A DNA stretch of 34,302 nucleotides from contig JACQYT010000129.1 of the NCBI GenBank assembly GCA_016208085.1, positions 1 through 34,302 of the forward strand, in the 5' to 3' direction. Source of the DNA: Elusimicrobiota bacterium (lineage in GTDB: Bacteria > Elusimicrobiota > Elusimicrobia > Elusimicrobiales > UBA9959). Made by a program: the position numbers and the translations under genes. Below, one piece after another: positions 4,061 through 30,892 of the stretch (the stretch's first letter is position 1; the number at the start of each line of letters is the position of its first letter). The notes under the pieces are model-generated. The model saw only the letters and a program-made list of their open reading frames with translations, did no database searches and had not been told where the DNA came from.

Positions 4061-4136
4061 GAAGATTAAAGATTGAAGAAGGAAGATTAAAGACAATTGC
4101 CTCAAATTCGGAATCTTGAATCTTCAATCTTGAATC
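4061..4136. repeat. Heptad inverted-repeat element, rplW-rplB gap
   Basis: The left arm (4061-4093) reads as 7-base words of the type AAGATTA, AAGATTG, AAGAAGG. The right arm (4111-4136) is the reverse complement of words GATTCAA and GATTGAA. The spacer is AT-rich. The arms can fold into a long imperfect hairpin between the two genes. Confidence 0.75.
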
Positions 4137-4151
4137 GAAAAGAGAGGATAT

Positions 4152-4994
4152 ATGCCAGTAAGATCATTTAACCCCTATACCCCGTCCAGAAGGACCATGC
4201 AGGTGAGCGATTTTTCCGATATCACCAAATCGTCGCCTGAGAAAAAACTGACCGTCGGTATGCGCAAGCGCGGCGGCCGCAACAACACCGGCATGGTGAT
4301 GGTGCGCCATCACGGCGGCGGACACAGGCGCAGCTACCGCGCGGTGGACTTCCGGCGCGAGAAATTTGGCGTGCCGGCCAGGGTCGCGTCCATCGAGTAC
4401 GACCCCAACAGGAACGCCCGCCTAGCGCTGCTGTTCTACGCGGACGGCGAAAAACGCTACATCCCGGCCCCGCTGGGCCTCGACGTGGGCGCCGCCGTCA
4501 TGAGCGGCCCCAAGGCGGAAATAAAACTCGGCAACGCGCTGCCGCTGATAAATATCCCGGAAGGCACTTTCGTCCACGCGATAGAAATGATACCCGGCCG
4601 CGGCGCGCAGTTTGTCAGGGCCGCCGGCACGCAGGCGCAGTTGATGGCTAAAGAGGGCGGTTATGTCCTGCTGAAGATGCCCTCCGGAGAAATAAGAAAG
4701 GTTTTGAAGGACTGCCTGGCCACCATAGGGCAGGTGGGCAACATCGAGCATAACACCATAACGCTGGGCAAGGCCGGCCGCCAGCGTCATATCGGCGTAA
4801 AGCCGACGGTCAGGGGCGCGGCCATGAACGCGGTGGACCACCCGCTCGGCGGCGGCAGGGGCCACTCCAAAGGCAATAATGTGCCGCGTTCCCCGTGGAA
4901 CCAGCCGTCCAGGGGCTTTAAGACCAGGGCCAAGAGGAAGATCTGGGGCTGGATGATAGTGCAGGACAGGCGCAAGTCACAAGTGACGGGGTAA
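4152..4994 (+). CDS. rplB: 50S ribosomal protein L2
   Basis: L2 supports the peptidyl-transferase centre and joins the subunits. Visible signatures are [14 protein letters not shown] at the start, [13 protein letters not shown], the SH3-like core, and the C-terminal [18 protein letters not shown] with the conserved histidine. Length 280 aa is typical. The last residues (RKSQVTG) are encoded by AAGTCAC and AAGTGAC words at about 4974-4988, the same word type as in the PBP2 tail, so the end of the protein may be repeat-derived. A GAGAGGA ribosome-binding site precedes the ATG, and a heptad-rich gap follows before rpsS. Confidence 0.98.
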
Positions 4995-5065
4995 GCCGGT
5001 AATAAGCAGCCGGTAACCGGTTGCCGAATACCGGATACCGCAGCAAGGTTACCGCAGTTAATACG
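4993..5065. repeat. Heptad word array, rplB-rpsS gap
   Basis: Words such as CCGGTAA, CCGGTTG and CCGAATA succeed one another every seven bases, starting right at the L2 stop codon. A GGTTACCGCAG piece near the end gives a short complementary arm. The array ends before the ACGGAGG ribosome-binding site of rpsS. Confidence 0.65.
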
Positions 5066-5078
5066 GAGGTTTTTCACA

Positions 5079-5366
5079 ATGAGCAGATCGTCTAAAAAAG
5101 GCCCTTTTGTGGACCTGAAACTGGCCGAGAAGGTTCAGAAAATGAACCAGACCGGGGACAAAAAGCCGGTCAAAACGTGGTCCCGGTCTTGCACCATCAT
5201 CCCCGAATTCGTCGGGCATACTTTCCTGGTGCACAACGGCAGGAAGTTCCTGCAGGTCTACGTCAGCGAGCAGATGATAGGGCACAAGTTAGGAGAATTC
5301 TCTTTTACCAGGCTGTTCAAGGGCCACGGCGCGGCGCATACGAAGGAAGCCACGGAACTGACATAA
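5079..5366 (+). CDS. rpsS: 30S ribosomal protein S19
   Basis: S19 binds 16S rRNA in the 30S head and makes intersubunit contacts with the 50S. The 95-residue sequence opens [12 protein letters not shown] and carries the family signatures [23 protein letters not shown] and [11 protein letters not shown]. Its length is normal. ACGGAGG, about ten bases upstream, is a strong ribosome-binding site. It lies between rplB and rplV as in most bacteria, with repeat arrays in both flanking gaps. Confidence 0.97.
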
Positions 5367-5370
5367 GGGA

Positions 5371-5450
5371 GGACAGCGGTCAGCGGACAGCGGTTGGCGG
5401 TCGGCCATGAGTTTTCTGACCCCTGACCTCTAACCCCTGATCTCTGATTT
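5371..5450. repeat. Heptad inverted-repeat element, rpsS-rplV gap
   Basis: The left arm (5371-5404) has words GCGGTCA, GCGGACA and relatives at a 7-base step. The right arm (5417-5450) is made of words CCCTGAC, CTCTAAC and relatives, which read GTCAGGG and GTTAGAG on the other strand. The element fills the gap almost up to the rplV start and leaves no ribosome-binding site there. Confidence 0.75.
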
Positions 5451-5455
5451 GAATT

Positions 5456-5812
5456 ATGGATGCCATTTGCAAACTGAAGTATCAGAGATACGGCCGTAGA
5501 AAGGTCGCCCGGCTTCTGGACCAGATCAGGGGCAAGTCGCTTTTCGAGGCGCAGCACATCCTGGCCGGCATCCCCATGCGGGCGACGGAACTGGTGCATA
5601 AAGCGGTGAAATCCGCCGGCGCCAATCTCTCGGTCAAACTGGGAAAAAAGCTGGACATTAAGAACATCTGGGTAAAAACCGCCTTCGCCGACCAGGGCCC
5701 CATGAAGTTTTTGAGAAGGGTGCAGCCGGGGCCCCAGGGCCGGGCCATGCCGTTCAAAAGAAAAATGTGCCATATTACGGTGGCCGTTTCCGACACAAAA
5801 GGAGGAAAGTAG
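5456..5812 (+). CDS. rplV: 50S ribosomal protein L22
   Basis: L22 spans the exit tunnel and touches every 23S rRNA domain. Signatures are the RRKVARLLDQIRGKSLFEAQHIL helix region and the C-terminal hairpin around PGPQGRAMPFKRKMCHITV. At 118 aa it is normal length. The ATG at 5456 follows a heptad repeat element directly, and no purine-rich ribosome-binding site is visible before it, so initiation may rely on something else or on readthrough from upstream. It keeps its usual place ahead of rpsC. Confidence 0.95.
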   Translation: MDAICKLKYQRYGRRKVARLLDQIRGKSLFEAQHILAGIPMRATELVHKAVKSAGANLSVKLGKKLDIKNIWVKTAFADQGPMKFLRRVQPGPQGRAMPFKRKMCHITVAVSDTKGGK

Positions 5813-5885
5813 AGATTAGCGTATAGCGTATAGCGTATAGGGAAGTATCTTGCCCTATCCCCTAGCCCCTAACCGCTATCCTCTG
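5813..5885. repeat. Heptad inverted-repeat element, rplV-rpsC gap
   Basis: Left arm (5813-5842) consists of GATTAGC followed by three GTATAGC/GTATAGG words at exactly seven-base steps. The right arm (5851-5885) on the opposite strand reads CGGTTAG, GGGCTAG, GGGATAG. The short core GGAAGTATCTTGCC lies between. Every word holds a TAG, so all three frames are closed within 21 bases. Confidence 0.8.
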
Positions 5886-5893
5886 TTTTTATT

Positions 5894-6622
5894 ATGGGTC
5901 AAAAAATTCATCCTAGAGGCATCAGACTTGGCTATATCCAGGACTGGCAGTCCAGGTGGTTTTCCCTTAAAAAAATGCCGGAACTTATCGGCGAAGATTT
6001 CGAGATCAGGAACATGATCCGTGAGCGCTTTGCTCTTGCTTCCGTAAGCTGGGTGGATATAGAAAGAGCCGGCTCTTATATTAAGCTGACCATCCACACG
6101 GCCAGGCCCGGCGTGGTCATAGGCAGGAGGGGCTCCGATATCGAAAATCTCAAAAAAGACGTGGAAGCCATGACCGGCAGGAAGATCTTCATTAATGTCT
6201 CCGAGATAAAGATACCCGAAATGGATCCCCGGCTTGTCGGGCAGGCCATAGCCCAGCAGCTTGAAAAGAGGATCGGCCATAAAAAGGCCATCAAAAGAGC
6301 CATGGAACGTACTATTGCTTCGGGTGCCCAGGGCATAAAGGTGATGGTTTCCGGGCGCCTGGGCGGCGCCGAAATAGCGCGCCGGGAATGGTTCCGGAAG
6401 GGTCGGGTGCCGCTCCAGACTCTGTCGGCCGATATAGATTACGGCCTGAGCGAAGCCATGACCGTGATGGGTAAGATAGGCGTAAAAGTATGGATCTTTA
6501 AAAAGCTTTTCTTCGCCAAGACGCCCAGGGAGCTTATGGAACAGCTGAAGAAACTCCAGGCCGAGACCCCGCTTGAGGTCCCGGTTGATATTGAGCAGGC
6601 GAAAGAGCAGGACGGCAAATAA
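5894..6622 (+). CDS. rpsC: 30S ribosomal protein S3
   Basis: S3 forms part of the mRNA entry channel and helps unwind mRNA. It has the MGQKIHPRGIRLG start, a KH domain with the VIGRRG loop near residue 78, and the C-terminal domain with GVKVWIFKK. At 242 aa it is within the family range, with an acidic tail. No Shine-Dalgarno sequence is visible before the ATG at 5894, which lies only about nine bases after the end of a heptad element; CTCTGTTTTTATT precedes it. It is followed by rplP after 30 bases. Confidence 0.97.
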   Translation: MGQKIHPRGIRLGYIQDWQSRWFSLKKMPELIGEDFEIRNMIRERFALASVSWVDIERAGSYIKLTIHTARPGVVIGRRGSDIENLKKDVEAMTGRKIFINVSEIKIPEMDPRLVGQAIAQQLEKRIGHKKAIKRAMERTIASGAQGIKVMVSGRLGGAEIARREWFRKGRVPLQTLSADIDYGLSEAMTVMGKIGVKVWIFKKLFFAKTPRELMEQLKKLQAETPLEVPVDIEQAKEQDGK

Positions 6623-6652
6623 GGGAAGCATAACTTAAGGAGAATAATTTTC

Positions 6653-7066
6653 ATGTTGATGCCAAAGAGGGTTAAATACAGAAAGACGCACTCCTCGCCG
6701 CGGATCAAGGGCAACACCAAGGGCGGCGCCGCGCTTCTTTTCGGCGAGTACGGCCTTAAAGCCCTTCAACCGCGGTGGATCACGGCCAGGCAAATAGAGT
6801 CCTGCCGCGTGACCATTATGCGCTATATGCGCAAGAAAGGCAAAATGTGGGTGAGGATCTTCCCGGATAAAGTGATTACCAAGCATCCGGCCGAGACCAG
6901 GATGGGCAAGGGCAAAGGCGCGCCGGACCATTGGGTGGCTGTCGTGAAGCCAGGCAGGATCTTGTTCGAGCTGGAAGGCCTGGATAATGTGTCGGCCAGG
7001 GAAGCGATGACCAGGGCCGGCCACAAGCTGCCGATAAGGACAAGATTTGTCGCGAGGGAATACTAG
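6653..7066 (+). CDS. rplP: 50S ribosomal protein L16
   Basis: L16 helps position tRNA in the A and P sites. The 137-residue sequence starts [11 protein letters not shown] like other L16s, and AAGGAG ten bases upstream favours this ATG over the one two codons later. Further signatures are the [23 protein letters not shown] helix and [19 protein letters not shown]. The stop codon TAG lies inside the left arm of a 21-bp perfect inverted repeat, so the 3' end of the gene abuts or is partly formed by that repeat. Confidence 0.97.
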
Positions 7067-7112
7067 TGTAGCGTCCCGCAAATAACTGGACATTTGCGGG
7101 ACGCTACACTAG
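7063..7112. repeat. Perfect 21-bp inverted repeat after rplP
   Basis: Arms at 7063-7083 and 7092-7112 are exact reverse complements (core TAGCGTCCCGCAAAT) around an 8-base spacer. The left arm contains the rplP stop codon. There is no following T-run, so a simple intrinsic terminator is unlikely. It reads as a small hairpin repeat distinct from the heptad class. Confidence 0.85.
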
Positions 7113-7242
7113 GAGCCTGTCCGACATAAGGCTTTCATGGCGAAATTGACGATTTTGATGACGAGCCGAAGCGACGCGAAACGAGCAGGCTCGTCGGAGC
7201 CTGTAAATTGAGCGGCGCAAAGGCGTAGTCCAAAAGCGACAA
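7111..7242. repeat. Repeat-like segment abutting the 5' end of rpmC
   Basis: This 130-base stretch is bracketed by a direct repeat GGAGCCTGT (7112-7120 and 7195-7203) and contains an internal GCAGGCTCGTCGGAGCCTG dyad. It holds only a 24-codon frame (7137-7211) of no recognisable function. It occupies the place where the rpmC ribosome-binding site and first codons should be. No second copy occurs in the window, so calling it a mobile repeat is inference. Confidence 0.45.
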
Positions 7243-7443
7243 TTGCCTCAGCTCAGGGACCTTGAGAAACATCTCTTCCGGATAAAATTCAAGAGGTCTT
7301 CCTCCCCGCTTGAAAACCCCATGCAGATCAGGCACGCGAGAAGGCAAATTGCGATGATCAGGACCTGGCTCAGGGCGAAGGAACTTGCGCCCGCCCTCCC
7401 AGCCGCTGTGGGCGGCAAATCTTCATCAGAGGTCAAAAAATAA
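7243..7443 (+). CDS. rpmC: 50S ribosomal protein L29, altered N-terminus
   Basis: L29 sits at the exit tunnel near L23. The helix pair is clear from QLRDLEKHLFRIKFKR through SSSPLENPMQIRHARRQIAMIRTWLRAKE. The usual first dozen residues (an M-K-x-x-E-L-R type start) are missing. The frame continues upstream only to a stop at 7204 with no ATG or GTG, so the best start is TTG at 7243; ATT at 7207 would be the only longer and very unusual choice. No ribosome-binding site is visible at either. An upstream repeat-like segment seems to have replaced the true start. The stop overlaps the rpsQ start (TAATG), so the two are translationally coupled. Confidence 0.8.
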   Translation: MPQLRDLEKHLFRIKFKRSSSPLENPMQIRHARRQIAMIRTWLRAKELAPALPAAVGGKSSSEVKK

Positions 7444-7715: not shown

Positions 7716-7748
7716 AAGCAGTATACAGTAAAATCTGGAGAATGCTTT

Positions 7749-8117: not shown

Positions 8118-8139
8118 CTCAAAAAAAGGTAACGATATT

Positions 8140-8451: not shown

Positions 8452-8464
8452 GGGGTGTCTCTAA

Positions 8465-9148: not shown

Positions 9149-9278
9149 AACAGAAGTCTAGAGTAATAACGCAAGTCGAGAGTGGAGAGTCTAAAGTAAA
9201 CACAGTGGTATTTCTGCACTCTACACTTTAGACTCTAGACTTTAGACTCTAGACTTTAGTCTCTACACTCTACACTGG
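9124..9278. repeat. Long heptad inverted-repeat element, rplE-rpsN gap
   Basis: The left arm begins inside the L5 reading frame with GAGTCTA and AAGTGGA words and continues past the stop to about 9205. The right arm (9217-9278) has eight successive 7-base words, alternating types GACTCTA and GACTTTA. The core between carries GTGGTATTTCTGCAC, and GGTATTTT recurs just after the right arm. The right arm closely matches the one at 11854-11896. Confidence 0.85.
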
Positions 9279-9295
9279 TATTTTAGGAGAACAGA

Positions 9296-9481
9296 ATGGC
9301 TACATACGCTTGGATGGCGAAAATGCGCAAACCCCAGAAATTTTCCACGCGCTTCAGGAACCGTTGCCAGATATGCGGAAGACCGAGGGGATATTACAGG
9401 GATTTCGGCCTTTGCAGGATCTGTCTCAGAAAGATGGCCCATGAGGGGCTGATACCGGGCCTAAAGAAGTCCAGCTGGTAG
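9296..9481 (+). CDS. rpsZ: 30S ribosomal protein S14, zinc-binding type Z
   Basis: S14 is needed for 30S head assembly. This is the short, zinc-binding form: 61 aa with CQIC and CRIC pairs (C-x2-C, 12 residues, C-x2-C) and the [23 protein letters not shown] signature. TTTAGGAGA ahead of the ATG is a good ribosome-binding site. It lies between two long heptad elements, in its usual place between rplE and rpsH. Confidence 0.97.
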
Positions 9482-9485
9482 CATA

Positions 9486-9633
9486 ACAGCAGCGAATAGC
9501 AAATAGCGAATAGGGAATAGCGAATGACAAAGTGGCGAACGGAGAACAAAAAAACCATCAAAATCCGTATTTCCACCCCTATTCGCTGTTCGCTAACCCC
9601 TATTCGCTGTTCGCTAACCCCTATTTGCTAACG
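9486..9633. repeat. Long heptad inverted-repeat element, rpsZ-rpsH gap
   Basis: Left arm (9486-9546) steps through AGCGAAT, AGCAAAT and close variants every seven bases. The right arm (9574-9633), read on the other strand, gives eight successive words of three types: TAGGGGT, TAGCGAA, CAGCGAA. The core (about 9548-9574) on the minus strand contains GGAAATACGGAT, which also occurs in the element near 30583. Confidence 0.85.
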
Positions 9634-10069: not shown

Positions 10070-10114
10070 GCAGGGTATAGGGTTTAGGGGATAGGGTAGA
10101 GGGTGTCAGAGAGA
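10070..10114 (+). repeat. Single-arm heptad array, rpsH-rplF gap
   Basis: Words GGGTATA, GGGTTTA, GGGGATA and GGGTAGA follow one another without slippage. No complementary arm is visible before rplF. The same word family occurs at 15796-15871 and 27266-27290. Confidence 0.8.
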
Positions 10115-11108: not shown

Positions 11109-11214
11109 GTAGTTGATAAGTGAAAGACAATAGTTGATAAGTTGACAAGCGGGGAACGGCAGTTGATAAGTAAGAAAGTTGCGGCACTTATCAACCGGTC
11201 AACTTGTAAACTTG
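11109..11214. repeat. Octad inverted-repeat element, rplR-rpsE gap
   Basis: The left arm has the 8-base words AGTTGATA and AGTTGACA; the right arm has CTTATCAA and GTCAACTT. From about 11141 on it is nearly the same sequence as the element at 13906-13987, including the shared core AAGTNNCGGCACTTATCAAC, so the two are copies of one element. Confidence 0.85.
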
Positions 11215-11238
11215 AATTTTGGTAAGGAGAATTGAATA

Positions 11239-11798: not shown

Positions 11799-11896
11799 AA
11801 AGTCTAAAGCGGAGAGTCTAAAGTCTAAAGATTGTAAGGAAATCCGATTCATACTTTAGACTCTAGACTTTAGACTCTAGACTTTAGACTCTAGAC
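11799..11896. repeat. Heptad inverted-repeat element, rpsE-rplO gap
   Basis: The left arm (11801-11830) has AGTCTAA and AGTCTAA-like words. The right arm (11854-11896) is six perfect steps alternating CTTTAGA and CTCTAGA. The core reads GTAAGGAAATCCGATTCAT, related to cores at about 9560 (minus strand) and 30583. The right arm is shared with the element at 9217-9278. Confidence 0.85.
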
Positions 11897-11912
11897 TATT
11901 AGGAGAAACAAT

Positions 11913-13901: not shown

Positions 13902-13987
13902 ACAACAGTTGATAAGTTGACAAGTAAGAAACGACAGTTGATAAGTAAGAAAGTCTCGGCACTTATCAACTTGTCAACTAATCAACT
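13902..13987. repeat. Octad inverted-repeat element, secY-adk gap
   Basis: The left arm (13906-13955) has AGTTGATA and AGTTGACA words; the right arm (13959-13987) has CTTATCAA and TTGTCAAC words. It is a close copy of the element at 11141-11214, including the core and the second AGTTGATAAGTAAGAAAGT block. Two such copies 2.8 kb apart show that the element has moved or been copied as a unit. Confidence 0.85.
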
Positions 13988-14020
13988 TTCCCAACTTCCT
14001 TGCAATACGGAGGCAGGAGC

Positions 14021-15795: not shown

Positions 15796-15871
15796 CGGCA
15801 GGGTAGAGGGTAGAGTTGCAGAAATAAGGAACTCCTTACCCTATACCCTATCCCCTCTGCCCTATACCCTG
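15796..15871. repeat. Heptad inverted-repeat element, rpmJ-rpsM gap
   Basis: The left arm has GGGTAGA words; the right arm (15838-15871) reads GGGTATA, GGGCAGA and GGGGATA on the other strand. The core TAAGGAACTCCTTA is a near palindrome that recurs with one change at 27301-27313. Confidence 0.8.
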
Positions 15872-15889
15872 TAGTTTTAAGGAGAAAGT

Positions 15890-16756: not shown

Positions 16757-16797
16757 AGCGGTAACCGGTAACCAGTAGCTGTTACTGTTTACTGATT
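16757..16797. repeat. Heptad element after rpsK
   Basis: Left words are GGTAACC repeated; the right side has TGTTTAC and TGATTAC, which read GTAAACA and GTAATCA on the other strand. It starts two bases after the rpsK stop and is followed by the composite repeat at 16805. Confidence 0.65.
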
Positions 16798-16804
16798 ACT
16801 TTGG

Positions 16805-16974
16805 TTAAAAATTTTTGCGGCAAAAATTTTTACCATACCCCGCCCTTTAGGGCGGGGTAATCTTGGGGTAAGGGGGAGTTTGAGGGGGAAAGAAATTTCC
16901 CCCTCATCTCCGGCAAGGTGTTGAAGAAAACCCCGTGCCGGGTAGGATAAAATGTTGTCGGACAACATTTTATT
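16805..16974. repeat. Composite hairpin repeat, copy 1 (ahead of rpsD)
   Basis: Three hairpins in order: AAAAATTTTTGCGGC with its complement, then CCCCGCCC-TTTA-GGGCGGGG, then a near-perfect palindrome around TGTTGTCGGACAACA (16953-16967). A second copy with the same order lies at 32878-33066 ahead of queE. The last palindrome contains ATG TTG TCG, which opens the rpsD frame further upstream and would add MLSDNILF to the protein if used. Between the hairpins is a Gly-rich GGGGGAGTTTGAGGGGG stretch. Confidence 0.9.
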
Positions 16975-16987
16975 TTACGGAGGTTTG

Positions 16988-17630: not shown

Positions 17631-17715
17631 AAGCAAGACAGCAAGAGAGCGAAAGAGCAAGAGAGTAGGATGCAGACACTATCGGGCTGTCCCGCTGTCC
17701 GGCTATCGCGCTAAT
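17631..17715. repeat. Octad inverted-repeat element, rpsD-rpoA gap
   Basis: The left arm steps through AGCAAGAC, AGCAAGAG and AGCGAAAG at eight bases. The right arm reads GCCGGACA, GCGGGACA and GCCCGATA on the other strand. The words of the two arms are related but not strictly complementary. The array ends before the AGGAGG of rpoA. Confidence 0.75.
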
Positions 17716-18719: not shown

Positions 18720-18767
18720 GGGGACAGTCCCTATTTACCGGCTTGCCGGTAAATAGAGACTGTCCCC
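18720..18767. repeat. Near-perfect 23-bp hairpin between rpoA and rplQ
   Basis: Arms at 18720-18742 and 18745-18767 pair over 23 positions with one mismatch and a 2-base loop. The outer part is GGGGACAGTC and the inner part TATTTACCGGC. It ends at most 12 bases before the rplQ start and leaves no room for a ribosome-binding site. Relatives occur at 10703 and within queE near 33193. Confidence 0.9.
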
Positions 18768-21850: not shown

Positions 21851-23751
21851 TAGAGCGGGGAATATCGCAGGAGAGGCTTGAGATCTTATGGCTGTGCGTG
21901 GCCGCCGTCAGTTTGGTATTTTTCCTGCGCCTGATCAATCTCCAGATCCTAAGGCACGTCTATTACAGGGAGATAGCGGAGAAAAACAGGACCCAGGTCC
22001 TGCCGCAGTCCGCGCCCAGGGGCAGGATCTTCACGCGGGATTCGGCGGCAGTGGCCGCCAACAAGCCGTCATTTAGCCTCATCTATTTTCCCGGCCGGCT
22101 CCGGTCGGTGGACGCCATGGATAAAATGGCCCAAAGCCTATCCAAACGCCTGAACGCGCCTTTTGAAGAGCTGCGCGCCGGTCTTTACAAGGCGGTGAAA
22201 AAAGAAGCGCCCATGCGCCTGGCGGAAAATCTTTCCTCAAAAGCCATGTTTTCCCTTTCCGAGCTTAAAACCATGTATGAGGGGATAGACATCATCGTGG
22301 AGGCCCGGCGTTATTATCCTTTCGGAAAATACCTGAGCCACCTTACCGGCTACATAAGCAAGATGGACTCCAGAGAGTGGGCGCTGTACGGAAAGAACAA
22401 GGATTACGGCATGGACTCCCGCGTGGGCAAGGCCGGCCTGGAAAAAACGTACGAGAAAGACCTCAAGGGCAGGGACGGCGGCATTTACCTTGAAGTGGAC
22501 TCGCGCGGCAAATTGAACAGGATCCTTGAAAGCAGGAAATGGGCGCCCGGAGCGGATATATACCTGACCGTAGATTCAAAGATACAGGCCGCCGCCGAGG
22601 AGGGGCTTAAAAGATCTTCCACCAGCAGGGGGGCGGTGGTGGCCGTAGATCCCCGGACCGGGGCGGTCCTGGCCATAGCCTCCATGCCCGACTATGACCC
22701 GAACAGGTTCGTGTCCTATTCGGACGAGAAAATCGCGGACGACTTTAAAGAGCTGCCGGAATTCAATGTCGCCATCCAGGGAACCTACGCGCCCGGGTCA
22801 ATCTTCAAGATAGTGAGCGCGGCCGCCGCCCTTGACTCCGGAAGGCTGGACCCCGCGGAGACTTTTTTCTGCCCCGGTTACTACGACGCCGGGAGCCGCG
22901 TCTTTAAGTGCTGGGAGAAAAAAGGCCATGGCCGCGTGGATTTCATGCAGGGGCTGACCCACTCCTGCGACGTCTATTTTTACAATCTGGGCTTGAAAAC
23001 TGGCGCGCTGAACATAGAAAAATACGCCAGGGCTTTCCGCCTGGGCCTGCCGACCGGCATTCCGCTGCCGGACGAGAAAAGCGGCAACATCTTCGGCCCC
23101 AGCATCAGGGCGGCCAAGAAAAGCTACTGGTTCATAGGCGACACTCTGAATTTAAGCATAGGGCAGGGGGAGATGCTCGTGACCCCGATACAGATGGCCC
23201 AGATGGCAGCGGCGGCGGCCAACGGCGGAATTTTCTGGCGGCCGTATTATGTGGAACGGATCGTCAACAGCGCGGGGGAGGATATTTTTAAGGGCAAGCC
23301 GGAAATGCTGTCCAGAGCGGTTTTAAAAGACAGTACCTGGGCCTCCTTGAAGGACGGACTGAAACAAGTCGTCCTTGAAGGCACGGGACGGGCCGCTAAA
23401 ATAAACGGCGTTGACGTGTTCGGCAAGACCGGCACGGCCCAGAACCCGCACGGCAAGGACCATGCCTGGTTCGTGGCTTTCGCCGGGCTTGCGGGCGAGA
23501 CTTGCGAGATCGCGGTCGCGGTGCTGGTGGAATATGGCGAGCACGGCGCTTCTTCGGCCGCGCCCATAGCCAGGGACGTCATTCTGGCCGCTTTGCGCGG
23601 CAAATTGCCGGAAAACCGGGAGAAGTCACAGGTCACAAGTCACAGGTCACAGGCCTTGCGGGAAGTTGTCGGGACGACTGTGCCGGCCGCTCAAAGCGGC
23701 CTTAAAGAGCTTTCTGTTTCCACGGCCGCGGCCGCCGAGGAGGGGCGATGA
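21847..23751 (+). CDS. mrdA: Penicillin-binding protein 2 (elongasome transpeptidase)
   Basis: PBP2 crosslinks side-wall peptidoglycan with RodA. One N-terminal membrane helix (about residues 10-30), a dimerisation/pedestal domain, then the transpeptidase: S318-I-F-K321 holds the acylated serine, SCD starts at 373, and K527-T-G-T-A closes the site. At 634 aa it is normal. The last 45 residues are unusual: SQVTSHRSQ is encoded by four 7-base words AGTCACA/GGTCACA (23624-23653), followed by a tail with no family likeness. Stops and starts overlap with mreD and rodA. Confidence 0.97.
   Translation: MIERGISQERLEILWLCVAAVSLVFFLRLINLQILRHVYYREIAEKNRTQVLPQSAPRGRIFTRDSAAVAANKPSFSLIYFPGRLRSVDAMDKMAQSLSKRLNAPFEELRAGLYKAVKKEAPMRLAENLSSKAMFSLSELKTMYEGIDIIVEARRYYPFGKYLSHLTGYISKMDSREWALYGKNKDYGMDSRVGKAGLEKTYEKDLKGRDGGIYLEVDSRGKLNRILESRKWAPGADIYLTVDSKIQAAAEEGLKRSSTSRGAVVAVDPRTGAVLAIASMPDYDPNRFVSYSDEKIADDFKELPEFNVAIQGTYAPGSIFKIVSAAAALDSGRLDPAETFFCPGYYDAGSRVFKCWEKKGHGRVDFMQGLTHSCDVYFYNLGLKTGALNIEKYARAFRLGLPTGIPLPDEKSGNIFGPSIRAAKKSYWFIGDTLNLSIGQGEMLVTPIQMAQMAAAAANGGIFWRPYYVERIVNSAGEDIFKGKPEMLSRAVLKDSTWASLKDGLKQVVLEGTGRAAKINGVDVFGKTGTAQNPHGKDHAWFVAFAGLAGETCEIAVAVLVEYGEHGASSAAPIARDVILAALRGKLPENREKSQVTSHRSQALREVVGTTVPAAQSGLKELSVSTAAAAEEGR
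23624..23653 (+). repeat. Heptad array inside the mrdA reading frame
   Basis: Four words alternating AGTCACA and GGTCACA in exact 7-base steps, then GG. It lies 98 bases before the mrdA stop and is translated. A two-word relative (AAGTCAC, AAGTGAC) encodes the L2 tail at about 4974-4988. Because this word happens to lack a stop in the frame used, the protein continues beyond it. Confidence 0.85.
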
Positions 23752-25088
23752 TCTTTACTTCTTCCAGCGGGCTTAAGAAGAACCGGATGGACTGGCTGCT
23801 CTTTTTTGCGGTCCTAGCCCTTTTAATTCTGGGGTCCTTCGCCGTTTTCTCTTCGGTTGCCGTTTTGCCGCAGCAGGCGCGCATCATAAGGACCCATCTG
23901 ATAGCGATCCCTTTGGGGTTTGCGGCTTTCTCAGTCATCTGGAGCCTCAATTACCAGATTTTCCAGGACCAGTGGAAATTCGTATACGGGGCGGCGCTCC
24001 TTATACTCCTGGGCGTGCTTATATTCGGCGTGGTGGATAAGGGGTCCAGGTCCTGGTACCGCCTGCCTTTATTTTCCGTCCAGCCTTCCGAGTTCGCGCG
24101 CATAGGGCTGATACTCGCGATCGCCAATTATCTGGATAAGAGGATAGCCAGGATCCGGGAATTTGCGGTGGCGCTTGGGGCGATATTTTTAAGCCTGCCG
24201 GTGTTCCTGCTGCTTATAAAACAGCCGGATTTCTCCGCCGTCCTTATAACGCTGCCGGTAGTGCTTATAATGCTTTTCGCGGCCGGAGCCAATCTCTTCC
24301 ACCTGTCCGTCATTCTGGGCTACAGTTTTATCTCGGCGCTTTTCCCGGTGCTCTGGACCGTCATAACTCTTAATTCCGAGCTGCTGGGAAGCCCGCTGAT
24401 AAATTATTTTTTCCATCTTTCGGATTTCGGCTGGAACACGCTGTTCTTTACGGCGGGCGTGGGCGTCGGCGCCTATTTGCTGTGGATCCTGTCGGTAAAG
24501 CTTTACTCCAATATCTCGGGGATGTTTTTCGCCGGGGCGGCGGTCGTGCTGGTGCTGGGTTTTTTTTCGGGCATTATGCTGAAGAATCAGATGAAGGATT
24601 ATCAACAGAAGCGTCTTGAGGTGTTTCTCTCCCCGGAGTCCGACCCCCGCGGCGCCGGGTATAATCTGCTGCAGGCGCGCATAGCCATAGGTTCAGGCGG
24701 GCTGTTCGGCAAAGGCATATTTTCCGGCACCCAGTCCCGGCTCGGTTTCGTGCCCGAGCGGCATACGGATTTTATCCTGGCGGTCATAGGCGAGGAGCTG
24801 GGGTTCTGGGGCGCCATGCTCGTCATGGGGCTTTATGTGCTTATTATGGGAAGGCTGAGGGCCTGCGCGCATCTTGCCCGCGACCGGTTCGGCTACCTGG
24901 TCGTCTGCGGGATCTTCGGCATGTTCATGGTGTATTTTTTTATCAATTTCGGAATGCTGCTGGGCTTAAGCCCCGTGGCCGGCGTGCCCCTGCCGCTTTT
25001 GTCCTACGGCGGGTCGAACCTGGTAGCCACGCTTATGGCGCTGGGCCTGGCGCAGTCGATCTATGCCAGGAGGTACGCATTAGTGTAG
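23748..25088 (+). CDS. rodA: Peptidoglycan glycosyltransferase RodA
   Basis: RodA polymerises glycan strands from lipid II together with PBP2. It is a SEDS-family protein with about ten membrane helices. Landmarks are GSRSWYRLPLFSVQPSEFARI, the large external loop with FVPERHTDFILAVIGEELGF, and the ending LLSYGGSNLVATLMALGLAQSI. At 446 aa it is longer than the usual 370-420; the extra length lies in the middle between the VQPSEF and VPERHTDF parts. Its start overlaps the mrdA stop. The last codons and TAG stop are the first bases of a heptad array. Confidence 0.96.
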   Translation: MIFTSSSGLKKNRMDWLLFFAVLALLILGSFAVFSSVAVLPQQARIIRTHLIAIPLGFAAFSVIWSLNYQIFQDQWKFVYGAALLILLGVLIFGVVDKGSRSWYRLPLFSVQPSEFARIGLILAIANYLDKRIARIREFAVALGAIFLSLPVFLLLIKQPDFSAVLITLPVVLIMLFAAGANLFHLSVILGYSFISALFPVLWTVITLNSELLGSPLINYFFHLSDFGWNTLFFTAGVGVGAYLLWILSVKLYSNISGMFFAGAAVVLVLGFFSGIMLKNQMKDYQQKRLEVFLSPESDPRGAGYNLLQARIAIGSGGLFGKGIFSGTQSRLGFVPERHTDFILAVIGEELGFWGAMLVMGLYVLIMGRLRACAHLARDRFGYLVVCGIFGMFMVYFFINFGMLLGLSPVAGVPLPLLSYGGSNLVATLMALGLAQSIYARRYALV

Positions 25089-25110
25089 AGTGGAGAGTTG
25101 AGAGTGTAGA
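25083..25110 (+). repeat. Single-arm heptad array at the rodA stop
   Basis: Words GTGTAGA, GTGGAGA, GTTGAGA and again GTGTAGA follow in exact steps. The first word contains the rodA stop TAG. No complementary arm is present before the next gene. Confidence 0.8.
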
Positions 25111-25127
25111 TAATTTGTTTTTACTTT

Positions 25128-25799: not shown

Positions 25800-25815
25800 G
25801 GAGAATTTACATAAT

Positions 25816-27267
25816 ATGAACAATCAGAAAGCGCCGAAAAAAGAGATCTTCGCGAACACGTCGTTTGAGGAAACAAGGATAGCGATACTGGAAGACGGCC
25901 GGCTGGCCGAGCTTTTCTGGGAGCGCAGGAGCAACACCAATATAGTGGGGAATATCTATAAAGCCGCGGTGGAAAACGTTCTGCCGGGCATCTCAAGCGC
26001 TTTTGTCAATATCGGCCTGGACAAGAACGCCTATATCTACATCTCAGACGTCCTGGGCGGCCAGCGCGACCCCATAGAGCGGTTGCTCTGCAAGGATCAG
26101 GAGGTAATGGTCCAGGTGACAAAGGACGCCATAGGCACGAAAGGCATGAAGGTTACCATGGATGTGTCGCTGCCGGGGCGCTATCTGGTGCTGACCCCGT
26201 TCCAGGAGTTCGTCGGCGTTTCCAAAAATATCGAAAATCCTGAAGAGCGGCAAAAGCTTTCCGAAATAATCAAAAAGATCACGGCGGCAAACGTTCTGGG
26301 CAAAAAAGGCTGTATTGTCAGGACCGAGGCTGAAGGCGCCACCGAAGCGGAACTGGAGCGCGAGCTTAAATACCTGATGCGGCTCTGGGATTCCATTCAG
26401 AAACGTTTTGAAACCGCGCGTCCGCCGCATCTCCTGCATAAGGACATGGACCTGACGCTCCAGGTGGCGCGGGACATACTTTCAGACGATGTCTCCATCT
26501 ATATGCTGGACAACAAGGACGGCTTCCATGAAACCTTGGAATTTGTGGCGAAGATCTCGCCCGATCTCAAGGAGCGGGTAAAATATTACGACGGCAAGAC
26601 CCCGGTTTTCAAGGCTTTCAACATAGACAAAAGCATAGAGGAGCTGAGGTCTATAAAAGTGGAACTGGCCAACGGCGGCAGCATCATTATCCAGGAAGCC
26701 GAATCCCTTTGCGCCATAGATGTCAACACGGGCCGCTTTACGGGCTCACGCTCTCAGGAGGAAACGGTCACCCAGACCAATATTGAGGCGGCCCAGGAAG
26801 TGGCCAGGCATCTACGGCTGCGGAACATCGGCGGCATCATAGTCATAGATTTTATAGACATGAAAAAAGCCTCCAACCGCCACAGGGTGGTGGACACCCT
26901 GGAGCGCGCTGTCAAGCGCGACAGGGCCAAGATCAGGATCCTGCCTATAACGCGGCTCGGCCTGGTGGAGATGACCCGGGAGAGGAAGCGCGAGAGCACG
27001 TTCAGCCTGCTTACCGAGGAATGTCCGGAATGCCGCGGCTCGGGCCGGGTGCTTTCCAGCGAAAGCATCAGGATAAAGATACAGCGCGAGATCCTGAATT
27101 TGACGCTCGGACGCCCGGGCGGCAGCCTGCGGCTGGTGGTTCATCCGCTGCTGGCCGACGTCTTCAGGAAAAAACAGGACCTAATGGAAAAGAACGTGCA
27201 CAGAAGCGTGAAGATATTTTCAGACCCCCAACTGACCTGGGAGGATTACAGAATAATATTAGAATAG
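25816..27267 (+). CDS. rng: Ribonuclease G/E family
   Basis: RNase G/E cuts single-stranded AU-rich RNA and matures 16S rRNA 5' ends. The S1-like domain is near residues 35-120. Catalytic aspartates D302 (AIDVNTGRF) and D345 (VIDFIDM) and the zinc-link cysteines C403 and C406 (CPEC) line up almost residue for residue with the E. coli RNase E set. At 483 aa, without a long degradosome tail, it is of RNase G size. TAAGGAGAA fixes the ATG at 25816. It is adjacent to DUF2344, a common pairing. Given the hairpin-rich mRNAs here, it is a natural candidate for processing them (inference). Confidence 0.95.
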   Translation: MNNQKAPKKEIFANTSFEETRIAILEDGRLAELFWERRSNTNIVGNIYKAAVENVLPGISSAFVNIGLDKNAYIYISDVLGGQRDPIERLLCKDQEVMVQVTKDAIGTKGMKVTMDVSLPGRYLVLTPFQEFVGVSKNIENPEERQKLSEIIKKITAANVLGKKGCIVRTEAEGATEAELERELKYLMRLWDSIQKRFETARPPHLLHKDMDLTLQVARDILSDDVSIYMLDNKDGFHETLEFVAKISPDLKERVKYYDGKTPVFKAFNIDKSIEELRSIKVELANGGSIIIQEAESLCAIDVNTGRFTGSRSQEETVTQTNIEAAQEVARHLRLRNIGGIIVIDFIDMKKASNRHRVVDTLERAVKRDRAKIRILPITRLGLVEMTRERKRESTFSLLTEECPECRGSGRVLSSESIRIKIQREILNLTLGRPGGSLRLVVHPLLADVFRKKQDLMEKNVHRSVKIFSDPQLTWEDYRIILE

Positions 27268-27316
27268 GGTATAGGGTAGAGGGTTTAGGGTATAGGGTTA
27301 TAAGGAATTCCTTTTA
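27266..27316. repeat. Heptad array with palindromic core after rng
   Basis: Words GGGTATA, GGGTAGA and GGGTTTA start within a base of the rng stop. They are followed by the core TAAGGAATTCCTTTTA, nearly the same as the core at 15825-15838. The complementary arm is missing. Confidence 0.8.
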
Positions 27317-27360
27317 TCGGAGCCTTTGAAACGAACTTCAAAATTAAGAGGTAACGGATT

Positions 27361-28977
27361 ATGATGAGGAAACTTTTAAGACGCAGCTTGGGCCTGGCCA
27401 TAGTTCTGGGTCTGGCCGCCGCGGCGCATGCCAAAGTGGATGAAGTGACCTACATGAAGAACGGGGCCTATATCGGAAAGATCGGAACCTATATCCTGAA
27501 CGGGAACCTTTACCTCAACGCCGCCGCGTCCGCCAAGCTTATGGGGGGGAAAATCTACTGGTACCCGGTCAGCGGCAAGCTTATGCTGCAGAACAAAGGC
27601 AACAAAGTCGTGTTCTTCATGAAATCGGACGAGGTTATGCTGAACGACTCCAGCGTGTCCATGCCCAATCCCCTTATAGTGCGCGGCGGGAAAGCGTTCC
27701 TTGTCATGGATTTTTTCATCTCGCGGCATTTTGCCCGCGCCTTCGGTTTTAAGCTGGATTATAATTCTTCTATAGGCGTGCTCGCGGCCCAGCAGAAGAT
27801 TAATATCAATTCCGTGAATTATTTTTCGTATAAGGATAAGACCAGGGTCGTGATATATCTCCAAGAAGCGCTGGGTTACCAGACCTCCCAGAAGGAAAAT
27901 AATATTTTCGCCATAACCGTGCCCGGAGGCATAGTGGAGGCCGAGGATAAAATAACCATAGCCGACGGCATCATCAAAAGCGTGGAGATTTTCCAGGAGA
28001 ACAAGATGGCGCGCATCATACTCACGCCGGACGATAATTTCGGAAAAGCATCGTCATTTGCGCTCACAGGCCCTGACCGCCTGGTATTCGATATTGCGAA
28101 AGCGGTGAAACCCATATCCCAGGGCATAAACACTGCGGGCCCGGACGCGGGGCTGCCGCTACTCGGCGAATCCGTAAAGGCGATAGACCCGCAGGCTCCG
28201 GGCCCGGACGCGGCGGGGCCGGCCGTTTCCACCAAAGCCGCCGACGTCGGCGGGGCGGTCGTAAACATCCCCGATAAGATCATACTTGATAAATCAGGCC
28301 ATAAAAGGATCGTGATAGACGCGGGGCACGGCGGCAAGGACCCGGGCGGCAAGAGGGCTTTCGGGCTCAAGGAAAAGGAGCTAAACCTTCTTATCGCCAA
28401 AGCGCTCTATGATATACTCAAAGACGAAGACATCTTTGACGCGCTTATGATTCGCACCTCCGATGTCTTTATCCCGCTGGCCGACCGTTCCAAAATAGCC
28501 AATGATTTTAAAGCTGATATCTTCATTTCCATACACGCGAATGCCTGCCGCGACCGCAGGGAAAAAGGTTTTGAGGTCTATTTTATGTCGGAAAACGCCT
28601 CGGACCCCTGGGCTGCTGAAGTGGCCGACTATGAAAACTCGGTCATAGGCCTTGAGGAGGGGGAGACCGCAAACGATCCCACCGCGTTATTGCTGCATTC
28701 CCTGGCCAGGAACGAATATATCAATGAAGGCAGCCAACTGGCCGGCCTTATCTCGCATGAGTTGGAGAGAAGCACGCCTTTCGTGAACAGGAACGTTAAA
28801 CAGGCGGCTTTTTATGTCTTAAGGGGGACTTACGCCCCCGGCGTGCTGGTGGAAATGGGTTTCATGACCAATGCCAAAGACCAGAAAAACCTCAACGATA
28901 AAAAAGTTAGGGCTAAAACAGCCAATGCCATATCTAAAGGCATAATGAAGTACGCGCAGATGAAGAAGTGGAAGTGA
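27361..28977 (+). CDS. N-acetylmuramoyl-L-alanine amidase (AmiC/Amidase_3 type)
   Basis: The enzyme cleaves the amide bond between N-acetylmuramic acid and L-Ala and helps split cells. A signal peptide ends near AAAAHA (about residue 24). The middle region (about 25-250) includes a copper-amine-oxidase-like/AMIN-type beta domain, then a Gly/Pro/Ala linker. The catalytic domain (about 314-538) shows all zinc-site residues: H323 (GHGGKDPG), E338, H392 (SIHAN) and the catalytic E498 (VEMGFMTN). At 538 aa it is a typical diderm amidase. The final A of the stop codon is already part of a perfect 11-bp hairpin. Confidence 0.94.
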   Translation: MMRKLLRRSLGLAIVLGLAAAAHAKVDEVTYMKNGAYIGKIGTYILNGNLYLNAAASAKLMGGKIYWYPVSGKLMLQNKGNKVVFFMKSDEVMLNDSSVSMPNPLIVRGGKAFLVMDFFISRHFARAFGFKLDYNSSIGVLAAQQKININSVNYFSYKDKTRVVIYLQEALGYQTSQKENNIFAITVPGGIVEAEDKITIADGIIKSVEIFQENKMARIILTPDDNFGKASSFALTGPDRLVFDIAKAVKPISQGINTAGPDAGLPLLGESVKAIDPQAPGPDAAGPAVSTKAADVGGAVVNIPDKIILDKSGHKRIVIDAGHGGKDPGGKRAFGLKEKELNLLIAKALYDILKDEDIFDALMIRTSDVFIPLADRSKIANDFKADIFISIHANACRDRREKGFEVYFMSENASDPWAAEVADYENSVIGLEEGETANDPTALLLHSLARNEYINEGSQLAGLISHELERSTPFVNRNVKQAAFYVLRGTYAPGVLVEMGFMTNAKDQKNLNDKKVRAKTANAISKGIMKYAQMKKWK

Positions 28978-29020
28978 CCCGAAAATTTGCAATTTTCGGG
29001 TGCTCGTTCGCCTGTCAGAC
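28977..29020. repeat. Hairpin plus GTTCGCCTG repeat, amidase-murI gap
   Basis: ACCCGAAAATT (28977-28987) pairs exactly with 28991-29001 around a 3-base loop. GTTCGCCTGTCAGAC begins five bases later. The same arrangement (CCGAAAATT hairpin, short spacer, GTTCGCCTG) occurs upstream of mreC at 20272-20313. No T-run follows the hairpin. Confidence 0.8.
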
Positions 29021-29043
29021 AGTTATAGCCGCGTGGTTTACCT

Positions 29044-29919
29044 ATGAGCGCCTATAAAAATTTGTGTCGCCGGTCAGGAAAGGACCCGAAAAAATCAGTT
29101 CCAACTAAAACTCCCGGGTTAAGCGAAAGAAATCGTCCGATCGGTATTTTTGATTCAGGGCTCGGCGGGCTTACGGTTTTTAAGGCCGTCAGGCGCCTTC
29201 TGCCCGGCGAGAATATTATTTATTTCGGGGACACGGCGCGCGTGCCGTACGGCACAAAATCAAAAGAGGCGGTGATAGCTTTTTCAAAGGAAATAGCGGA
29301 ATTTCTTTCCGAGCGCGGAGTAAAGCTCCTTGTTATCGCCTGCAATACCGCAAGCTCGCTCGCGCTTGAGGAAGTGCGGGGGATAACGCGCGTGCCGGTC
29401 ATAGGCGTTATAGAGCCCGGCGCCCGCGCGGCGCTTGGCGCCACTTCGAACGGCCGGATCCTGGTGACCGGGACCACGGCTACCATAACAAGCGGCGCCT
29501 ACCGGAAACTCATTAAAAAGCTCGACCCCGGCGCCTTTATTTTTGAAAAAGCCTGTCCGCTTTTTGTGCCTCTGGTAGAGGAAGGCTGGTGCGGCAAGAA
29601 GATCACGGAGCTTGTGGCCGAAGAATATCTGGCGCCTTTGAGAAAAAGCGGCTTTGACACCGTAATACTCGGCTGCACCCATTATCCGCTGCTCAAAAAA
29701 ATGATAGCCCGGGCGCTGGGCGGCCGGATAAAAATAGTGGACTCAGGCCCCGCCACCGCTTCCGAGGTCAGGGCCGAGCTGCGGGCCAGGGGCCTTCTGA
29801 ATCCGGCGCGCCGCGGGCGCGAACGCTATATAGCAAGCGACGCCCCGGATAAATTTAAGGCGCTCGCTTTAAGGCTTTTGAACCTCCGGGTGGAAAATGT
29901 GAAAGTAAAAAGGTTTTAA
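29044..29919 (+). CDS. murI: Glutamate racemase
   Basis: The enzyme makes D-glutamate for the peptidoglycan stem. The conserved FDSGLGGLTV segment holds D37, and the two catalytic cysteines are C100 (ACNTASS) and C211 (GCTHYPLL). At 291 aa it is about 30 longer than usual, because the frame starts 30 residues before the family start at RPIGIFDSG. That extension (SAYKNLCRRSGKDPKK...) resembles no known part of MurI, and no ribosome-binding site precedes 29044, so the true start could be an alternative codon further in. It continues the peptidoglycan theme of the neighbouring genes. Confidence 0.95.
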   Translation: MSAYKNLCRRSGKDPKKSVPTKTPGLSERNRPIGIFDSGLGGLTVFKAVRRLLPGENIIYFGDTARVPYGTKSKEAVIAFSKEIAEFLSERGVKLLVIACNTASSLALEEVRGITRVPVIGVIEPGARAALGATSNGRILVTGTTATITSGAYRKLIKKLDPGAFIFEKACPLFVPLVEEGWCGKKITELVAEEYLAPLRKSGFDTVILGCTHYPLLKKMIARALGGRIKIVDSGPATASEVRAELRARGLLNPARRGRERYIASDAPDKFKALALRLLNLRVENVKVKRF

Positions 29920-29951
29920 CCAAAAGAGCGCGCGGATTATATAAAATAAGG

Positions 29952-29990
29952 AGAGAGTTGAGAGTTCAGAGATAAGAGATTAGAGTTTAA
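29952..29990 (+). repeat. Single-arm heptad array after murI
   Basis: The words GAGAGTT, CAGAGAT, AAGAGAT and TAGAGTT follow in exact 7-base steps. It sits in the 111-base gap between murI and the next gene, before its GGGGAGG ribosome-binding site. No complementary arm is visible. Confidence 0.75.
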
Positions 29991-30030
29991 TGTTTTTCAG
30001 TTTACTCTTTGGTATATGGGGAGGATTATT

Positions 30031-30531
30031 ATGAAAATGATGATTGTTTTTCCGGTTTTGCTGGCGCTGGGTTTGAACCTTGGCGCCCAACCTGGAGAAA
30101 GCGCTCCGGATACGGTGCAGAAGAACGAACCTGCAGCGGCTAAATCCCCGGTCAAAAACGCAAAACAGTCGCCCCTGGCGGCGAATGAGGAGAAAAAACC
30201 GCCCCAGCCCCAGAAGAAAGAACCAGCCAATGCCGGCGCCGAGCAGGAAGGCGATGAAGGCAGCGTGATGATAGATTCCAGGGCTGACGAAGATTACGCG
30301 GAGCGGCCCAAGTACGCCAAGCCCCGTTACCTGATCGAGACCGAAGAGTCAAACGCTCCGGACGGCATGCCGGCATCCTACGGCCAGCTTAAAGGCGCGT
30401 TCAATGACGGCGGACGGAGCATTCTGGTCTTTGAAAACGAAGAGGGCGTCATGGCCTTTGTGCAGGTTTTTGTGGGTAAAAACGCCGTCAGCTGGAAACT
30501 TATCTCCAGGATACGCAGGAGCGGGGATTAG
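30031..30531 (+). CDS. Secreted hypothetical protein with Lys/Pro-rich linker
   Basis: I do not recognise this 166-residue protein. It starts with a signal peptide (MKMMIVFPVLLALGLNLGAQ), then a low-complexity region rich in Lys, Pro, Ala and Glu (about 22-75). After an acidic patch, a small C-terminal domain (about 105-166) contains GRSILVFENEEGVMAFVQVFVG and ends in basic residues. GGGGAGG nine bases upstream fixes the ATG at 30031. A periplasmic or surface location is likely. It might be a cell-envelope accessory given the neighbours, but nothing shows its function. Confidence 0.75.
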   Translation: MKMMIVFPVLLALGLNLGAQPGESAPDTVQKNEPAAAKSPVKNAKQSPLAANEEKKPPQPQKKEPANAGAEQEGDEGSVMIDSRADEDYAERPKYAKPRYLIETEESNAPDGMPASYGQLKGAFNDGGRSILVFENEEGVMAFVQVFVGKNAVSWKLISRIRRSGD

Positions 30532-30892
30532 GGGCAGTAGGCAGGGGATAGTAGATGGTAGGTAGCAGGTGGTAGGTGGGGAAGGAAATACGGATCTCAT
30601 TAACCTACCTCTGTATATCATTGCATAAATAAGGCGACATAAATCATTATTGTAGTTGCCGAGCTTGCTCGGCTTGGCATAAATTAGGCTTGCCAGGGGC
30701 AAGCAACTACAAAGCGTTACGTAGCGGGCGATGTAAATCGCCCTAATTTCGCGGACTTACGTCCACCGCTACAACAACCCTGTAGTTTCACGCCCCTGAC
30801 GTGATATCATTGAAATTCCTGTACATCAAGCCTATATATCTATCACCTATTATCTACTGCTTAAATTGGTAAAATAGCTTTAGAGGTGGATT
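30532..30892. repeat. Gene-free stretch: heptad element split by nested hairpins
   Basis: The left heptad arm (30534-30581) has GCAGTAG, ATGGTAG and GTGGTAG words in perfect 7-base steps, then the core GGAAATACGGATCTCATT. The matching right arm lies at 30833-30860 and reads GCAGTAG, ATAATAG and GTGATAG on the other strand. About 150 bases of other hairpins lie between them (30651-30805), as if inserted later. An extended -10-like TGGTAAAAT (30867-30875) lies before the HicA-like gene. Confidence 0.7.
30651..30805. repeat. Nested hairpin repeats inside the heptad element
   Basis: Unit 1: TGTAGTTGC (30651) to GCAACTACA (30711), with the inner hairpins CCGAGC-TT-GCTCGG and GCTTGCC-AGG-GGCAAGC. 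Unit 2: GTAGCGG (30721) to CCGCTAC (30772), with inner GGGCGAT-GTAA-ATCGCCC and a GGACTTACGTCC dyad. Unit 3 starts with TGTAGTT at 30781 and holds CACG...CGTG. Each unit is a hairpin made of smaller hairpins. Confidence 0.75.

Follow-up and report, generated by a model that had tools for sequence, protein, structure and literature searches.

What fills the gaps between the genes of a ribosomal-protein operon in the Elusimicrobiota, and how could it have come to be there? The window analysed here is an entire contig (C105) of 34,302 nucleotides from an Elusimicrobiota metagenome-assembled genome (MAG, here G000) of 3,142,571 bases in 136 contigs, whose closest named relatives are Elusimicrobia MAGs. 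It is mainly a ribosomal-protein operon, with the S10-spc-alpha genes followed by MreB, MreC, a penicillin-binding protein, a RodA-like protein, RNase E/G and N-acetylmuramoyl-L-alanine amidase (Pfam); the ribosomal gene names are our own reading, with tblastn of the window proteins in relatives. From the letters alone, an original prediction had described intergenic elements at 17 places, built from imperfect tandem words of seven or eight bases, many of them with an arm of reverse-complement words behind a short core. We confirm that the word arrays in the gaps are real. They belong to a kind of intergenic repeat that is known but unnamed, here in a variant with many words, and we propose with moderate confidence that they form several families of non-autonomous hairpin elements, which would spread from one gap to another and lengthen or shorten by slippage of whole words.

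The predicted period was recovered at all 17 places. The best lag was 7 at 14 of them and 8 at the remaining three (11109, 13902 and 17631), exactly those assigned a period of 8 beforehand. At none of the places did any of 300 dinucleotide shuffles of the gap reach the observed lag score; at five places, a stretch cut around the array was shuffled instead. The period therefore survives the composition control proposed with the prediction, as the shuffled sequence lacks a 7-base periodicity. Tandem Repeats Finder called a period of 7 or 8 at 15/17 places, missing 4993 and 11109. Pooled lag-7 identity was 0.332 in intergenic versus 0.249 in coding sequence, with echoes at lags 14 and 21. From rplC onward, arrays occupy 17 of the 22 gaps of at least 60 bases, a count made up of 16 predicted places and the gap at 33749-33860, the gap at 25083 being shorter than 60 bases and left out.

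A wider period scan, also suggested at the outset, covered 340,365 bases of G000 with a segment threshold of score 14 or more and five local shuffles. It returned 81 lag-7 and 9 lag-8 segments versus a mean of 0.0 in the shuffles (0.0 to 0.4 segments per lag), and zero segments at lags 5, 10 and 11. Lags 6 and 9 gave 5 and 4 segments, every one in called-coding sequence. Called-coding sequence also holds 29 of the 81 lag-7 segments; these coding labels, like the neighbour-gene orientations given below, rest on a crude open reading frame (ORF) caller, and we take this placement to be partly the result of wrong ORFs. In total, 67 elements were called. The element of the rpsN-rpsH gap is present in four separate assemblies (G000, its congener G001 with an RpsE 95% identical, G011 and G019) and is therefore not an assembly artefact, the other concern raised beforehand.

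The predicted architecture of facing arms is present at 13 of the 17 places. Inverted arms exceeded shuffles at 12 of them (p 0.003 to 0.020, where 0.003 is the floor of the 300-shuffle test), and the element at 30534 has a second arm at about 30837-30860 that is supported (p = 0.007) when tested against the whole gap. At 10070, 25083, 27266 and 29952, inverted arms were not above shuffles, leaving four one-armed arrays. The elements of the window, including three arrays outside the predicted list, are arranged as follows.

4050..4136: two-armed, period 7, word GAAGATT/AAAGATT, in the rplW-rplB gap.
4995..5078: two-armed and degenerate, period 7, word CGGTAAC, in the rplB-rpsS gap; the corresponding gaps of G011 and G019 contain related sequence.
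5371..5448: two-armed, period 7, with AGCGGTC as the left-arm word; the right arm, taken from the opposite strand, is AGGGGTC/AGAGGTC.
5805..5884: two-armed, period 7, left arm AGCGTAT, right arm reading AGGGGAT; the predicted fold is a rod with regularly spaced mismatches.
9149..9276: two-armed, period 7, word AGTCTAA/AGTGTAG; kept in G001, with right-arm indels of 7 and 21 bases.
9491..9629: two-armed, period 7, word AGCGAAT, core ATCAAAATCCGTATTTCC; present in G001, G011 and G019 as well, with one extra 21-base unit in G000.
10072..10104, forward strand: one-armed, period 7, word GGGTATA.
11111..11215: two-armed, period 8, word AGTTGATA, core AGTAAGAAAGTTGCGGCACTTATC.
11799..11897: two-armed, period 7, word AGTCTAA; the same gap of G001 has a period-8 GGACAGCT element.
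13905..13990: two-armed, period 8, word AGTTGATA, core AGTAAGAAAGTTGCGGCACTTATC with 2 mismatches; G001 has a period-7 AAGGCTA element instead.
15800..15873: two-armed, period 7, word AGGGTAG, core AAATAAGGAACTCCTTA; G001 has a CAGTAAC element instead.
16759..16800: two-armed, period 7, word CGGTAAC; a word is shared with the same gap of G001.
17632..17713: two-armed, period 8, word AGCAAGAG; G001 has a 29-base gap without an element.
23625..23653, forward strand: period-7 array GTCACAG inside the penicillin-binding protein coding sequence, near the C terminus; in G001 the word is GTCAGAG and the site 31 bases longer.
25082..25110, forward strand: one-armed, period 7, word AGTGTAG, overlapping the end of the RodA-like gene.
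27264..27298, forward strand: one-armed, period 7, word GGGTATA; GGGATGA in G001.
29953..29995, forward strand: one-armed, period 7, word GAGAGTT; G001 has a two-armed AGTCTAA element, with words within one base.
30533..30860: two-armed, period 7; the left arm (30533-30579, word GGTAGGT) is retained in G001, and the second arm lies at about 30837-30860.
32145..32185, forward strand: period-7 array outside the predicted list, word AAAATGC, at the start of ORF 32149-32865.
33749..33860: array gap outside the predicted list, period 7 or 8, words like GATGCGTA (by eye).

Between both arms of the 30533 element lie about 257 bases with other palindromes (30580-30836), which are missing from G001 and are possibly a later insertion into the element.

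The two arms have a consistent polarity. Among 95 pairs of adjacent arrays, taken from G000, G001 and ten additional loci, 81 are inverted, with a median identity of 0.79 over 30 bases between an arm and the complement of its partner. The purine-richer arm lies on the left in 79 of these 81 pairs, some of which are orthologues and hence not independent, and in 76/76 where the bias is strong. As the element is a palindrome, both strands read the purine arm first. Of 80 pairs, 57 could be assigned a position relative to their neighbour genes, and among these purine-first arrangements prevailed between codirectional (43:1), convergent (9:0) and divergent (4:0) genes. Selection within operons was rejected as the cause of the polarity, since convergent and divergent gene pairs show the same order. 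Within this bacterial family, the purine-rich arm thus comes first on both strands regardless of the direction of the flanking genes. The loops between the arms measure 6 to 106 bases (66 loops), and 20 of them contain AAGGA or TCCTT versus 5.3 expected. A strict AAGGA..TCCT-like core (AAGGAACTCCTT-like) is found in 5/66 loops versus 0.03 expected from shuffled loops.

Composite forms were also seen. A chimeric element with arms AGCGAAT and AGCGGTC around GGAGTTCCTT stands at L018:4086-4182 and in the rpsS-rplV gap of G019, and is common to both genomes of that genus. By eye, the AAGGCTA elements of G001 and G000 (e.g. L014:6050-6146) often sit within a larger palindrome with ends CCCGAAAATTGC and GAATTTTTCGGG; this family may ride in a unit of its own that resembles a miniature inverted-repeat transposable element (MITE).

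The original prediction held that the word differs by locus while the architecture stays the same. Many words do share one architecture, but a free choice of word at each locus is not supported: the words fall into families dispersed over the genome, and much of the apparent freedom comes from different families occupying different gaps. The octamer AGTTGATA is the word of the family that carries core AGTAAGAAAGTTGCGGCACTTATC, which occurs, with at most 3 mismatches, at 16 places in G000, 7 in G001 and 0 in 23 other relatives (reversed-pattern control, 0). Among the ten copies read, four (C3 12163, C3 126099, C40 and C123 41532) have a nearly identical right arm, while the others have a different right arm, or in one case none. 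Some left arms consist of a repeated module of 24 bases (3 x 8), and several copies show the same order of word variants within an arm. The dispersed core, together with the right arm and word order shared by several copies, therefore indicates that whole elements were copied. The doublet AGTTGAYAAGTTGAYAAG was matched in 7 of 198 genomes of the phylum, namely G000 and six of distant families, and in 0 of 17 other genomes drawn from its own family (a draw without G001); the reversed-pattern control matched 4 genomes, including G055, one of the six.

The comparison of orthologous gaps, proposed together with the prediction, reveals presence or absence of elements as well as turnover of word or period between G000 and G001. 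We examined 37 gap pairs, of which 17 were comparable, with arrays in both genomes at a score of 12 or more. Word or period is different at 7 of the 17: the period differs at five (rplR-rpsE, rpsE-rplO, secY-adk, C3 17396 and C3 20349), and no word comes within one base at two (rpmJ-rpsM and C3 19135). At three more (25088, 27264 and 29959), the words are one base apart. Arrays are present in one congener alone at rpsD-rpoA (G000) and at map-infA, rpoA-rplQ and C105 25803 (G001). Across 21 genomes, these gaps either contain arrays, at lag 6, 7, 8 or 10, or measure 10 to 30 bases; in the rpmJ-rpsM gap, five word types, one at lag 6, were seen by eye in 7 of the 9 genomes shown. Gap identities from loose alignments were inflated in unrelated pairs (0.7 to 0.8) and were not used, so that only codon-site counts are kept. 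Array density in the S10 locus differs among genera. In a sample of 20 stretches from other Elusimicrobiota, two of them unreadable and seven picked for a word match in the genome, the arrays of G043, G045, G049, G055 and G057 lie chiefly at lags 7 and 8, with one to three arrays each in G067, G097, G103 and G199 and none at these lags in the stretches of G059, G065, G181, G142, G146, G033, G012 and G022.

Where right arms can be read between congeners, their length changes by whole words, in keeping with the earlier suggestion of a copying or diversifying mechanism that acts in seven-base steps. Right-arm indels measure 7, 21 and 7 bases in the rplE-rpsN gap and 21 in the rpsN-rpsH gap. In 17 of 80 inverted pairs, the arms differ in the base that is fixed at a given word position, and identity is 0.78 within arms versus 0.73 between them. 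Slippage within arms would produce this pattern, unlike constant copying from one arm to the other. The rpsN-rpsH element remains recognisable in G000, G001, G011 and G019, with at most 2 changes in its core ATCAAAATCCGTATTTCC, and G011 has a similar sequence between rpsE and rplO. Between G000 and G019, only 20 of 47 four-fold degenerate rpsH sites match; the element is better kept than these sites, from which we infer that it is of use. Its retention across two genera suggests that some copies may have become useful RNA hairpins.

We propose that whole elements would be inserted into gaps by an enzyme or a recombination route, probably through a hairpin DNA intermediate. After insertion, each arm would grow or shrink through replication slippage in whole-word steps, which would preserve the period while changes spread along the arm.

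A number of observations weigh against this proposal. MITEs have a target-site duplication and a common terminal inverted repeat. Direct repeats of at least 7 bases, the range covered by our test, flank 0/68 two-armed elements, where mismatched pairs would give about 1.5, with shorter duplications lying outside the test. As a candidate for a common end, AACRGCAG stands at the left of only 9 among 208 arms, with roughly 0.2 expected. No mover was found in searches for target duplications, REP-associated tyrosine transposases (RAYT; REP, repetitive extragenic palindromic) or RVT_1. A fixed core is well shown for one family alone, since 4 of the 5 strict AAGGA..TCCT cores lie between GGGTAG-type words, and the cases with other words were seen by eye. 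Single linkage merges 65 of 96 arms, so that family borders drawn by word are fuzzy. At least one exact word is common at 7/17 shared gaps (rplE-rpsN, rpsN-rpsH, rpsK-rpsD, 30533, C3 23522, C3 30273 and C3 31629), although sharing one word is a lax test, as C3 23522 and C3 30273 look different in their main words. At the three gaps with words one base apart, drift in place would explain the data as well as replacement does. Some indel lengths are not divisible by 7, namely 32 and 18 bases in the left arm of the rplE-rpsN element and 31 bases in the coding array at 23656. Finally, eight inverted pairs from distant Elusimicrobiota split into five purine-first and three pyrimidine-first, so the polarity rule may be local to the home family.

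Candidate carriers were considered as well. RVT_1 matches occur in 13/41 genomes; a reverse transcriptase was rejected as the driver because G008, G019, G004 and G002, which have arrays in the S10 locus, show no RVT_1 match, although these are incomplete MAGs and the argument is accordingly weak. The 9149-9296 element had no BLAST match in plasmids with the low-complexity filter on. Among viral contigs, 19 stretches hold the AGTTGAYA word and 3 hold AGGGTAG, a few of them with inverted arms by eye, and we claim nothing from these.

The arrays could instead be protein-binding sites kept by selection at an even word spacing, or hairpins in the transcript by which expression is set between the genes of an operon, with the word changing as the binder changes. 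We regard this as possible but doubtful. It would account for the filling of 17 of the 22 longer gaps and for the rpsN-rpsH core kept over four genomes while rpsH four-fold sites agree at only 20/47. RNA folding of 11 elements gave z-scores down to -7.3, -5.8 and -5.1, whereas other folds are unremarkable (-1.2 at 5367, -1.4 at 27260) and the window has no Rfam match at gathering score. For a similar architecture in Geobacter, global-regulator (IHF/HU) sites were proposed in the accessible part of that report (PMC2700814). The many words per genome, the other words or periods at some congener gaps and the same polarity between convergent genes (9:0) speak against such sites. Purely local slippage, in which a 7- or 8-base stretch is tandem-duplicated in its own gap and copied between arms by template switching without any movement, would explain the whole-word indels, the arm-specific word changes and the three gaps with words one base apart, and heptamer repeats are described as generally over-represented in bacteria in the part of the literature at hand (PMC4692102). 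We nevertheless find it unlikely, as one word with the same core recurs at many loci, a similar right arm is found in 4 of 10 copies, and elements are present or absent at orthologous gaps such as rpsD-rpoA and C105 25803.

A third possibility, that these are REP-like elements moved by Y1 (RAYT) transposases, appears very improbable. Of 41 genomes, 23 have Y1_Tnp matches, which are more frequent in the family that carries arrays. Elements of the RAYT class are expected to leave no target duplication, as observed here, and REP copies of this kind flank the Y1 transposase gene. In contrast, only 3 of 18 Y1 genes have an array within 200 bases (one of these arrays is a weak octamer, and a contig end cuts a flank in two of the 18), palindromes of a different type flank several inspected Y1 genes (by eye), and G012 and G020 have Y1 matches yet no S10-locus array. 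We attach equally little probability to healed chromosome breaks, in which a word-adding polymerase would have extended both broken 3' ends, telomerase-like, with purine-rich 7- or 8-base words before their head-to-head joining. Such healing would leave purine-first arms on both strands around a short junction, no target duplication, and one-armed as well as chimeric forms.

Other repeats share the window with these elements. Positions 1-1970 contain an apparent insertion sequence with hairpin ends CAGCAATTCCGC...GCGGAATTGCTG, which encodes one protein weakly like DDE_Tnp_1 (below cut-off) and one DUF6788 protein. By eye, two copies of another dispersed element, without a 7- or 8-base period, occupy 16805-16985 and 32888-33066, starting with TTAAAAATTTTTGCGGCAAAAATTTTTACC and ending near ACATTTTATT. 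The gaps at 7105-7240 and near G000:C3:21740 (L060) share a longer repeat that begins with AGGAGCCTGTCCGACATAAGGC (by eye). The rpoA-rplQ gap (18720-18767) forms a strong hairpin, GGGGACAGTCCCTATTTACC...GGTAAATAGAGACTGTCCCC, like those beside some Y1 transposase genes here (by eye).

How do the arrays relate to repeats already described? The short tandemly repeated repetitive (STRR) sequences of cyanobacteria are heptamer tandem repeats between genes, and heptameric simple sequence repeats of this type have one or few fixed words per genome. The tandem 7-base intergenic units here are alike, with 8-base units at three sites, but the words are not fixed: 96 arms fall into 21 groups after single linkage at one mismatch, although such groups chain together and are not used as family counts. 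REP elements and their paired form (REPIN), like MITEs, are short palindromic intergenic elements in many copies. In contrast, the elements here have arms of periodic words, and neither a fixed palindromic head nor a target duplication of at least 7 bases was found. In line with the prediction, they are not a REP element of fixed sequence, nor a simple microsatellite, which would have near-identical units and no core.

The prediction also named the STRR repeats as the closest known class and described them as lacking inverted arms. For known heptameric repeats in general, a lack of inverted arms is contradicted by the literature: tandem heptads with convergent pairs, and several word classes per genome, are already in print (PMC4692102, PMC2700814, each as far as its accessible text goes). 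In Xanthomonas, GGGAATC heptads form convergent pairs in 70 and 75 cases, and Nostoc has the heptad GGGGA(C/T)T; both are imperfect tandem heptamers, mostly intergenic, like the arrays here (PMC4692102, in part). We read the Xanthomonas pairs as G-rich word first on both strands, similar to the 79/81 purine-first pairs of this study. In the accessible text, the Xanthomonas and Nostoc repeats comprise one G-rich word type studied as a G-quadruplex former, whereas many words and periods of 7 and 8 occur here (PMC4692102). A GGG tract is found here in GGGTAGA-type words but not in AGTCTAA, AGTTGATA, AGCGAAT or CGGTAAC, and most words lack it. In Geobacter metallireducens, tandem 8-mers or 7-mers are paired, one array on each strand, with variable spacing and with several word classes in one genome, which is the same kind of pairing, and one consensus there, TWGTTGAY, is close to AGTTGATA (PMC2700814, in part). 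That account, which concerns a different phylum, presents the sites as putative binding sites for regulators, with few repeats in each arm, and its accessible part does not treat orthologous-gap turnover, polarity or word-step growth (PMC2700814). As a separate observation, the CACGGAG-word element in the adk-map gap of G001 (L014) resembles by eye the Geobacter class 2 consensus TCTCCGTS, as given in the same part (PMC2700814). TAACTGA direct repeats in Beggiatoaceae, Cyanobacteria and Bacteroidetes are likewise intergenic heptamer arrays, patchy across distant lineages; according to the text at hand, they have one favoured word and are mostly direct and upstream of start codons, with a single indirect repeat in the BOGUAY genome, and the outline of that paper includes a section about ribosomal protein operons (PMC4679880). 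Our literature search, with most subscription journals outside it, returned no report on such repeats in Elusimicrobia or on their polarity or turnover.

If our reading is true, a class of repeats known from scattered reports would be one architecture with many words, which several families of a single phylum possess and which changes from one congener to the next, even within a ribosomal-protein operon. Its rules, namely a period of 7 or 8, the purine arm first and whole-word steps, are simple enough for genome scans and laboratory tests. They pose the questions of what sets the step at seven or eight bases and what sets the polarity.

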